From positions 2,790,001-2,854,000 of the forward strand of contig NZ_CP127174.1 in the NCBI RefSeq assembly GCF_030273315.1: a DNA stretch of 64,000 bases, given 5' to 3'. Under the pieces are notes generated by a model. It did no database searches. It worked only from the letters and a program-made list of their open reading frames with translations, and had not been told where the DNA came from. Made by a program: the position numbers and the translations under genes. Positions 10,253 through 23,904 of this stretch are shown in pieces; positions within the stretch are counted from its first letter, which is position 1; each line of letters begins with the position of its first letter. This stretch comes from Natrialbaceae archaeon AArc-T1-2. GTDB lineage: Archaea; Halobacteriota; Halobacteria; Halobacteriales; Natrialbaceae.

Positions 10253-10327
10253 AGCGGGATGGGATAGCCAGGAGATTCCGGCGGGCTCATAACCCGCAGA
10301 TCGGTAGTTCAAATCTACCTCCCGCTA
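10253..10327 (+). tRNA. Initiator tRNA-Met (CAT)
   Basis: A 75-nt cloverleaf: acceptor AGCGGGA paired with TCCCGCT, anticodon arm GCGGGCTCATAACCCGC with CAT, and T arm GGTAGTTCAAATCTACC. The A1-U72 end and the GGG/CCC-rich anticodon stem identify the initiator. A CCCTTAACT box A-like motif lies about 30 nt upstream. CCA is not encoded. The last 24 nt are repeated 124 bp downstream. Confidence 0.96.
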
Positions 10328-10461
10328 CTTTTCGACGCGAACAACAGCGAGGAACGGAGTGACGAGCGTCGTGAGCGTCGAAAGTCCGACGAGTAGATTT
10401 GAGTTAGAGAGCAGCTTGCCTGCGACCGTAGTTCAAATCTACCTCCCGCTACTTTTCGACG
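10304..10461. repeat. tRNA-Met tail: direct repeat of the tRNA 3' end (10304-10337 and 10428-10461)
   Basis: 34 identical bases begin GTAGTTCAAATCTACCTCCC inside the tRNA and recur 124 bp downstream. Each copy covers the tRNA 3' end plus 10 following bases (CTTTTCGACG). Between the copies, TAGATTTGA at 10393-10401 is an inverted version of the T-arm sequence and could pair with the second copy. The second copy forms the last codons of idi. This looks like an att-type duplication or a tRNA-derived hairpin. Confidence 0.85.
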
Positions 10462-22193: not shown

Positions 22194-23531
22194 TCACTCG
22201 ACGTAGCGATACTCGCGTTCGCCCATTCGACCCCAGCCGTCGAAGACGAACTCGCCGTCGGGTGTCGTACAGGCCTCGATGTCGACGTCCATCTCGTGGT
22301 TGTGGACGTCGTGGATCTCCTCGTACTCCTCGAAGGTGATATCGTATCGGGACTCGAGCTGTTCGTCGACGTTCAGCGCCTCGATCTCCTCGGCCCAGCC
22401 CTCCTGGACGGTCTCGGCGTGGAGTTCAGCCTGTGCGCCCGAGCCGTACGAGCCGACGAGCAGCTGCTGGCCCGCGAGCTCCTCGTCGTTCTCGAGGGCG
22501 TGTTTCAGGGCGCTAAGCCGGGCGACGTGGACCGAACCCGTGTACCAGTTGCCGACCTCCCGGGCGATCGACAGCGTCGGATCGATCGTCTCGGCGTACC
22601 ACTCGCGGTACTGGTCCGTGTCTTTCAACGCGTCCATGTACTCCCGCAGTGCGTCGTGGTAGGCCTCGTCGTCGTCGAACCCTTCCGGCCGGGGCTGGCG
22701 ACCGATCTCCGCGGCGAGTTCGTCCTCGATCGCCGTATCCCGGGTGATGTGACGGTACGCGAGCATCGCCGCCTTGCGTACCATGCCGGGGAATGGGGTG
22801 TGGAACGGGGCGTAGGCGACGTCGTCGGGGTGGACGTCGCCGGCGACGCTCTCGTAGTCCTCGAGGGCTTCGCGCATCCGTGCGAGGTAGACCTGCACCG
22901 ATCGCTTCCCGTCGACGCTTGGGAACTGCTGGTTGGGTTTGAGGAAGTCGGTCTCGTCGGCCGAGCCGTAGCCCTGTTCGACCGACAGCTCCACGAGGTC
23001 GGGGTCCTCGTCGATATACATCGCGACGGCACCCGCACCTTGAGTCGCCTCGCCGGCGTCGCCGCGGGCGTACAGCGCCGTGTCGGTCGCGATCACGAGC
23101 GCGCCGCGGCCGCGGTTCCGGCCCGCGCGGATCCAGTTACAGGCGTCGTCCAAACTCTGGGTGCCAGCGATACACGCGAACTTCCGTTCGCCCTTGTTCG
23201 CGTGATGGAAGTCGCCGTCGAAGACCTCCTCGAGACAGCCTGCGACGTACGTCGAAACCGGCTTCGAGTTGTCGAAGGCGCTCTCGGTCGCGACGTCGAT
23301 CCGGCCGACATCGTCGGGCTCGAGCCCCTTGCGATCCATCAGCCGGTGGGCGGCGTTTGCCCCCATCGTGACGATGTCCTCGTAACTGTCGGGGAACGAA
23401 CTCGCCTGTAGCCCCAGTCCCTTCGTATACTTCTCGGGATCTTCGTCCATCTGCGGGGCGAACGTCTCCGGGAGGTCGAGTTTGAGGTTTCCGGTCCAGA
23501 CTTCGACGGCGTCGATGCCGACAGCTGTCAT
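22194..23531 (-). CDS. hmgB: Hydroxymethylglutaryl-CoA synthase
   Basis: 445 residues. It condenses acetyl-CoA and acetoacetyl-CoA in the mevalonate pathway to isoprenoid lipids. The nucleophilic Cys lies in KFACIAGTQSLDDACNW; His in PFHTPFPGMVRKAA and the GNWYTGSVHVARLSALKHAL block also match. It is full length for archaeal enzymes. A TATA-like ACTTATACC lies about 26 nt upstream of ATG 23531, so the mRNA is probably leaderless. Another isoprenoid gene, idi, is at 10449 but not linked. Confidence 0.96.
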   Translation of the reverse strand: MTAVGIDAVEVWTGNLKLDLPETFAPQMDEDPEKYTKGLGLQASSFPDSYEDIVTMGANAAHRLMDRKGLEPDDVGRIDVATESAFDNSKPVSTYVAGCLEEVFDGDFHHANKGERKFACIAGTQSLDDACNWIRAGRNRGRGALVIATDTALYARGDAGEATQGAGAVAMYIDEDPDLVELSVEQGYGSADETDFLKPNQQFPSVDGKRSVQVYLARMREALEDYESVAGDVHPDDVAYAPFHTPFPGMVRKAAMLAYRHITRDTAIEDELAAEIGRQPRPEGFDDDEAYHDALREYMDALKDTDQYREWYAETIDPTLSIAREVGNWYTGSVHVARLSALKHALENDEELAGQQLLVGSYGSGAQAELHAETVQEGWAEEIEALNVDEQLESRYDITFEEYEEIHDVHNHEMDVDIEACTTPDGEFVFDGWGRMGEREYRYVE

Positions 23532-23712: not shown

Positions 23713-23853
23713 GCGGGCCGGGCGCGATTTGAACACACAGTCGGACGTGCTCGCTTCGCTGCGCGCGACCTCCCTGCGATTCAAATCGCGCTGGCCGCTT
23801 TACTCCTCGCGTAATCGCTCGGAGCAAAAGCGGGCCGGGCGCGATTTGAACAC
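23713..23853. repeat. tRNA-Lys tail: direct repeat of the tRNA 3' end (23713-23736 and 23830-23853) with an inverted copy between
   Basis: 24 identical bases starting GCGGGCCGGGCGCGATTTGA occur inside the tRNA-Lys gene and again 117 bp beyond its 3' end. TTCAAATCGCGCTGGCC at 23778-23794 is an inverted version that can pair with the distal copy to form a hairpin. The layout mirrors that behind tRNA-Met at 10304-10461. The rest of the gap 23532-23830 shows no gene. Confidence 0.8.
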
Positions 23854-23904
23854 GCGACCGTCTGATTAAGAGTCAGACGCTCTGCCGGACTGAGCTACCG
23901 GCCC
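23831..23904 (-). tRNA. tRNA-Lys (CTT)
   Basis: 74 nt on the minus strand: acceptor GGGCCGG paired with CCGGCCC, D arm TAGCTCAGTCCGGCAGAGC, anticodon arm GTCTGACTCTTAATCAGAC with CTT, T arm GCGTGTTCAAATCGCGC. No CCA or intron. It is divergent from the RCK-DHH gene at 24065. Confidence 0.96.

Follow-up and report, generated by a model that had tools for sequence, protein, structure and literature searches.

Casposons encode cas1, possess terminal inverted repeats, generate a duplication of about 14-15 bp, and also choose tRNA 3′ ends. MITEs are recognized by terminal inverted repeats that match those of a transposon, together with a target-site duplication, whilst the attC sites of integrons are imperfect palindromes with conserved ends, a variable tip, a GTTRRRY core and a shared segment of ~7 bp, and are linked to IntI. 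The SMR-A small mobile repeats of the haloarchaeon Haloquadratum walsbyi are ~110 bp in length and have terminal inverted repeats, and they do not duplicate their target (PMC3119063). The targets of SMR-A are palindromic and include PATEs and IS605-type transposons; the way in which SMR-A moves is unknown (PMC3119063). PATEs also lack a target duplication, and have not been described at tRNA genes (PMC3119063). Integrative elements with tyrosine integrases, such as those of the SNJ2 type, carry kilobases of cargo, target the 3′ end of tRNA genes, leave a direct repeat of it on both sides, and accumulate in tandem beside the tRNA (PMC8371274).

We have analyzed a stretch of 64,000 nucleotides from Natrialbaceae archaeon AArc-T1-2 (the whole of which is hereafter called the window), in which two tRNA genes are each followed by a short non-coding "tail". 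In form, the tails are closest to SMR-A and PATEs (PMC3119063) and to the tRNA-targeting integrative elements (PMC8371274), but each of these systems fails at least one of the features that we tested.

Anatomy and folding of the tRNA tails

The intact tRNA-Lys (CTT) gene occupies positions 23831-23904 of the window (ARAGORN; Rfam RF00005, 67.7 bits) and, like every part of its tail, lies on the reverse strand. The preliminary description had reported that 24 bases from the 3′ end of this gene recur at 23713-23736, and this is exactly so: the end of the tRNA plus one trailer base is repeated with 24/24 identity, whilst the best match among 20,000 random 200-bp pieces of the window was 18/24. 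The reported spacing of 117 bp is correct when measured from start to start, but the gap between the end of the gene and the copy is about 93-96 bp.

The first direct copy, T1, is the target segment itself and comprises G53-73 of the tRNA (23831-23851), its length of 21 bp being the modal duplication across many tails. It is followed by hairpin A (CTTTT...GCGAGGAGTAAAG; 23798-23830), which was delimited by sequence and fold and has a T-rich left end and a stem with a tandem G-A mismatch motif. T2′ (23776-23797) is an imperfect inverted copy of the T-loop and 3′ T-stem that tracks the local tRNA across tails; the inverted stretch previously noted between the copies, TTCAAATCGCGCTGGCC, is indeed present, although it is located at 23780-23796 rather than 23778-23794. 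Sequence comparison identifies hairpin B (AGGGAGG...CCGACTGTGT; 23735-23775) as a module common to other tRNA tails. The second direct copy, T3 (23714-23734), is exact over G53-73, and is included in the match at 23714-23795 to a covariance model, R1, which describes the inverted T-arm, hairpin B and the second copy. The likeness to a tail behind the intact tRNA-Met (CAT) gene (10253-10327, forward strand; ARAGORN and RF00005) was also recovered. This tail (10328-10451) belongs to the same family and has the same layout, with hairpin A at 10328-10387 (sequence and fold), T2′ and hairpin B at 10388-10430, and T3 at 10431-10451, where identity extends ~10 bp into CTTTTCGACG; the last two assignments rest on sequence and on the covariance-model match at 10388-10451.

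The order T1, hairpin A, T2′, hairpin B and T3 is that of the unit in general. Hairpin A has a T-rich left end and GCGARC motifs in its stem, and hairpin B commonly reads TCAGGGAG...CGACCGTG. The distance between the direct copies is mostly about 75-120 bp, with extremes of 45 and 209, and nearly all units are shorter than about 180 bp; none contains a gene. On the left, the direct repeat begins sharply at G53, whilst its commonest right extent is 21 nt, ending at the discriminator base, in a sample that was restricted to perfect copies and is biased towards ≥21 nt. Next to hairpin B types starting with TAGACC or TAGACGAG (e.g., loci L108, L064, and L013), T3 often has one extra T-loop base, and the resulting motif, GTTCA[CT]AATC, is a possible mark of a sub-family.

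How closely T2′ follows its own tRNA was evident at positions 62-65, where the match was 0.80, 0.82, 0.53 and 0.49, compared with 0.56, 0.55, 0.25 and 0.29 for tRNAs other than its own. Across positions 61-73 the own tRNA scored 5.34 versus 4.70 ± 0.08 when permuted. The conserved T-loop alone accounts for much of the inverted match. A full inverted copy of the acceptor end was considered and rejected, as positions 67-73 are weakly tRNA-specific (3.73 versus 3.59 ± 0.06 permuted), even though the signal over 61-73 as a whole is clear. In an alignment that was fitted to the covariance model, a procedure that favors the structure, T2′ and T3 are paired in 95% of cells, and 176 cells are doubly changed, versus 49 ± 5 in shuffles.

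The tail in the window folds strongly (z of -6.7 as RNA and -5.5 as DNA), and tails in general fold preferentially on one strand. With RNA parameters, the tRNA-sense strand was the more stable one in 102 of 112 tails (versus 48 of 111 flanks), and with DNA parameters in 95 of 112 (versus 54 of 111 flanks); GCGARC was counted 144 times on the tRNA-sense strand, as against four times on the opposite one. This strand specificity suggests that the element has an ssDNA or RNA form. One candidate role, that of a tRNA-derived RNA mimic for processing enzymes, was rejected because T2′ pairs with the T-loop itself, such that no T-loop forms. Above the gathering score, Rfam 15 matched only tRNA and no other known structured RNA family.

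Placed beside the known systems, the tails share with attC sites an imperfect palindrome whose ends are conserved and whose tip varies, a strand-specific fold and arrays that grow at one end, but their core in alignments is GTTCRAA, the shared segment is 21 bp, there are no gene cassettes, and no IntI is found among them. In common with MITEs and casposons, they are non-autonomous and have a direct target repeat, but they have no terminal inverted repeats, no cas1 in the unit, a repeat of 21 bp, and an inverted copy of the target inside; by inspection, the left ends of units (CTTTT/TATTTC/TGCAG...) and their right ends (...CGACCGTG) are not mutual inverted repeats. SMR-A resembles the tails in being ~110 bp, non-coding, haloarchaeal and directed to palindromic targets, whereas the tails lack its terminal inverted repeat, carry a 21-bp direct target repeat, and have T-arm targets; the two may be distantly related. 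Similarities to PATEs and to IS605-type (IS200/IS605) elements consist in near-terminal palindromes without terminal inverted repeats, non-coding versions and strand-specific hairpins (PMC3119063), but the tails differ from PATEs in their 21-bp direct repeat, and neither TnpA nor TnpB was found in any tail. The tRNA-targeting integrative elements share the target, the flanking repeats and the tandem accretion (PMC8371274), yet the tails are ~100 bp, free of genes, contain the internal inverted copy, and are themselves displaced by such elements. We found no published description of a tRNA-tail element in a literature search that missed most subscription journals, and novelty is accordingly provisional.

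Tails in this genome and across the Halobacteria

The preliminary description had proposed scanning every tRNA gene of this genome and of other haloarchaea, and the arrangement was revealed in both; the refuting condition named there, its absence from all other tRNA genes of this and related genomes, does not hold. A search with RF00005 gave 46 tRNAs in the genome, on which the tail scan was run, and a second tail copy lies 3′ of 21 of them; the copy listed for L024 belongs to the next tRNA-Asp, but R1 still finds the L024 tail. With R1, about half of the tRNA loci were matched (22 of 47), including a tRNA-Pro overlooked by RF00005 and a tail displaced 10.4 kb from its tRNA. At another locus (L037, tRNA at C1:1241984), the tail copy lies 42 bp downstream and lacks the inverted part, which would fit an atypical or partly deleted unit. 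A tandem tRNA-Asp pair (C1:1479650-1480240, also L180) has a tail behind each gene, which looks like a joint duplication of gene and tail.

Beyond this genome, R1 matched 114 of the 116 Halobacteria genomes sampled, representing all 46 sampled genera. A phylum-wide draw gave matches in 41 of 43 Halobacteria versus 7 of 204 other genomes. The latter, which occur once per genome and belong to one family, were rejected as relatives; the three that we opened were false, each being an intron-bearing tRNA followed by tRNA-Asp. With the seven false matches (three of them checked) excluded, the tail family is absent from the about 200 non-Halobacteria genomes sampled in the phylum. When all R1 matches in three genomes were placed, 80 of 90 were located on the strand of a tRNA and no more than 900 bp beyond its 3′ end (chance, <1%). 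The other ten comprise an intron-bearing tRNA-Trp, two tRNA-Pro genes that RF00005 had overlooked, tails that insertions had moved away, and a protein-gene site with three units.

Presence of a tail at a given tRNA is labile. Among 80 named relatives, tails at the tRNA-Lys locus are present, decayed or absent even inside single genera. Tandem arrays are frequent; that at a tRNA-Lys(TTT) gene (L172) consists of four identical 111-bp units followed by older, differing ones. Natronococcus amylolyticus (L108) has one unit beyond those of L064 and L070, with the same flank further out, and its older unit has a different type of hairpin B. The gene adjoining the tRNA-Lys tail in the window, encoding HMG-CoA synthase (22194-23531), is at that place in none of the 80 relatives that carry a DHH/TrkA gene, in nearly all of which tRNA-Lys lies beside the latter, and it could therefore not serve as a landmark for empty Lys sites. 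Rearrangement is frequent on the 3′ side of tRNA-Lys. At locus L088 (Haloterrigena sp. H1), there is a 1.3-kb insertion within the first 1.3 kb 3′ of tRNA-Lys; T-segment repeats with two mismatches lie on both of its sides, and it contains no integrase but a single ORF of 382 aa, for which Pfam gave no match.

Parts of the unit are shared between tRNAs. An identical 27-nt hairpin B occurs in the tails of tRNA-Glu, tRNA-Met, tRNA-Leu and tRNA-Thr across four genomes, and a whole unit could be aligned between tRNA-Gly and tRNA-Phe tails (score of 0.69, the highest), the targets of which differ at 7 of 20 positions. The nearest neighbor was on the same tRNA for 12 of 82 hairpins B, 19.5 of 82 hairpins A, and 24.5 of 82 linkers, compared with 1.8 by chance. 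Units are therefore partly bound to their tRNA and partly shared, and they are not freely interchangeable, given the partial tRNA specificity of hairpin A and of the linker. No near-identical units were caught on two different targets in one genome, and recent jumping between tRNAs is presumed. The layout, its conservation throughout the family, the T2′ and T3 that follow the target, and the hairpins common to different tRNAs are established.

Units also occur away from tRNA genes. In one genome (G063), three tandem 102-bp units lie at the stop codon of a gene for an OB-fold protein (the Pfam match being marginally under the curated cut-off) that ends ...GGTTCGAGCCGGTCTGA. The end of this gene is T-arm-like (GGTTCGA[AG]CC), and the repeated segment is the end of the gene itself. 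In G115, which belongs to another genus, both gene copies carry units at the corresponding place, with an outermost repeat that is shorter (13-15 bp), as decay would give. In six relatives, namely this genome, G031, G061, G104, G100, and G070, the gene end is empty. What the element requires is therefore a T-arm-like sequence rather than a tRNA gene, and this site is the decisive evidence for the mobile-element reading. Units at this protein gene were seen in two genera only, the insertions in which may share one founding event. The tandem arrays, the patchy presence, and the insertion at a protein gene whose end is empty in relatives are likewise established.

Two proposals of the preliminary description gain strong support from these results (tails genome-wide and across the Halobacteria, their position 3′ of tRNAs, shared hairpins and covariation): that a recurring mechanism, and not chance, lies behind the arrangement, and that the tail is a small tRNA-tail element.

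Alternative explanations

The chief alternative invokes a recombinase for which circles bearing the 21-bp segment are the substrate. A small circle would have an attP containing this segment, a tyrosine recombinase would cross over in the T-loop, the repeats would be attL and attR, and hairpins A and B would be the arms of attP. Such site-specific recombination would explain why identity begins at the T-loop, which is a known position of integrase crossover, and why the newest units adjoin the tRNA, as in tandem integration; it also fits with the partial tRNA specificity of hairpin A and the linker, and with the 12 integrase-domain matches in the genome. However, a matching attP would be needed for each of some 47 distinct tails and for the protein gene, yet hairpin B moves freely between tRNAs. 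Nor is there a recombinase in any unit, or a match to the Lys unit in phage and plasmid records (the plasmid collection being perhaps poor in archaeal plasmids), and we regard this explanation as unlikely.

Searches for a source of mobility were negative within their scope. Pattern scans of IMG/VR for a viral or plasmid source gave either no match or four unrelated ones, without a tail or an adjacent tRNA. No gene-bearing relative with a split hairpin B emerged from a half-site search of six genomes, in which unpaired half-sites proved to be tails of which one half is a variant, a displaced tail, or matches by chance. Together with the domain search of this genome, the half-site search yielded no mobilizing enzyme and no autonomous, gene-bearing relative.

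It is still less probable that the tail is a structural RNA that arose in place, with tRNA transcripts entering the tail and the hairpins serving in termination, 3′ processing, or as a switch in which T2′ pairs with the T-arm or T3. The T-rich left end is located where a terminator belongs, the fold is strong in the tail of the window and prefers the transcribed strand, and T2′ and T3 covary, all of which would be expected of such an RNA. It leaves unexplained why the tail is missing from about half of the tRNAs and flips between presence and absence in sister species, why arrays consist of identical units, and why units lie behind a protein gene; moreover, no Rfam family other than tRNA was matched. 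The earlier suggestion of a terminator or processing structure thus survives as a possible side function, given the T-rich end at the position where a terminator is needed, but does not account for the arrays, the patchy presence or the protein-gene site. A role of tail RNA in termination or processing could exist alongside mobility.

Proviruses and tails meet at several tRNA genes. Behind tRNA-Pro of this genome (C1:1351516) come, in this order, a ~10.3-kb insertion, 12 bases that repeat the acceptor, and a complete tail (L141). The insertion (L141:1200-11520, corresponding to C1:1341.2-1351.5 kb) encodes a 340-aa integrase with a Phage_int_SAM_1 (SAM-like N-terminal) domain, and is probably a provirus or an integrative plasmid. 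The displaced R1 match adjoins this integrase, and we considered the tail as the attR of the provirus; the order of provirus, 12-base acceptor copy and tail rejects it. The same order, with an insertion between tRNA and tail, was found at L069 (1.16 kb), L241 and L242. Each insertion has its own att copies and separates the tRNA from the tail; the tails are therefore older than these insertions and do not represent att scars left by them. That tails are scars, i.e., two att copies remaining after loss of a provirus or integrative plasmid between them, is consequently very improbable, even though the 3′ ends of tRNA genes often serve as att sites (PMC8371274) and some tRNAs of Halobacteria do harbor proviruses (as at tRNA-Pro here; PMC3119063), for remnants in 114 of 116 genomes would not have conserved hairpins and a standard length in common, and no larger element with tail ends was found by half-sites in six genomes. 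The preliminary idea of a satellite of integrases finds no support here, as neither an integrase nor any other gene lies inside any tail, and in the cases examined (L141, L069, L241 and L242) integrase-bearing or integrase-type insertions split the tRNA from a tail that was already there.

Proposed mechanism and implications

We consider it likely that the tail belongs to a family of miniature mobile elements in the Halobacteria, which are non-coding, target T-arm-like sequence and have 21 bp of the target on both sides. Such an element would recognize the T-arm-like core GGTTCRA, usually with a flanking inverted repeat (target context, GGTTCGAACC), and would insert on the 3′ side of the T-arm. 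The 21-bp stretch that begins at G53 and ends with the discriminator would then be present on either side of the element, and the tRNA would remain intact. The T-rich left end of the element would take the place of the former terminator of the tRNA. Target-derived direct repeats flank the units, at tRNAs (21 bp) and also at the protein gene, and the 21-bp repeat was presumably made at insertion, by staggered joining or target copying, rather than carried in. The enzyme would act in trans, and the tRNA-sense strand, folded as ssDNA or RNA, may be the active form.

An inverted copy that tracks the target is not the product of plain target-site duplication or simple staggered insertion. T2′ may be a guide, may be rewritten by hairpin-templated repair, or may be copied at insertion. 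Arrays would grow by repeated insertion or by unequal recombination between the 21-bp repeats, with the newest unit nearest to the tRNA, and tandem growth after one founding event could be due to unequal recombination. More tentatively, and with rather less than even confidence, we suggest a new class of mobile element, consisting of a folded single strand (ssDNA or RNA) that copies its target into itself. In such a class, T2′ would be the guide or foldback, the 21-bp copy would be added at the 3′ side, and the element would settle at any T-arm-like sequence whilst leaving the tRNA unharmed, and would have spread through the whole class Halobacteria without genes.

The annotation of proviruses is affected in practice, as tail copies can be mistaken for att sites or tRNA fragments when borders are called. 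The tail system can be tested in genetically tractable haloarchaea. If the mobile-element reading is true, Halobacteria would host a common, undescribed genetic parasite or passenger at the most conserved genomic integration sites. It would also bear on why integration clusters at tRNA 3′ ends, on how gene-free elements of such size move, and on how the small mobile repeats of haloarchaea spread.
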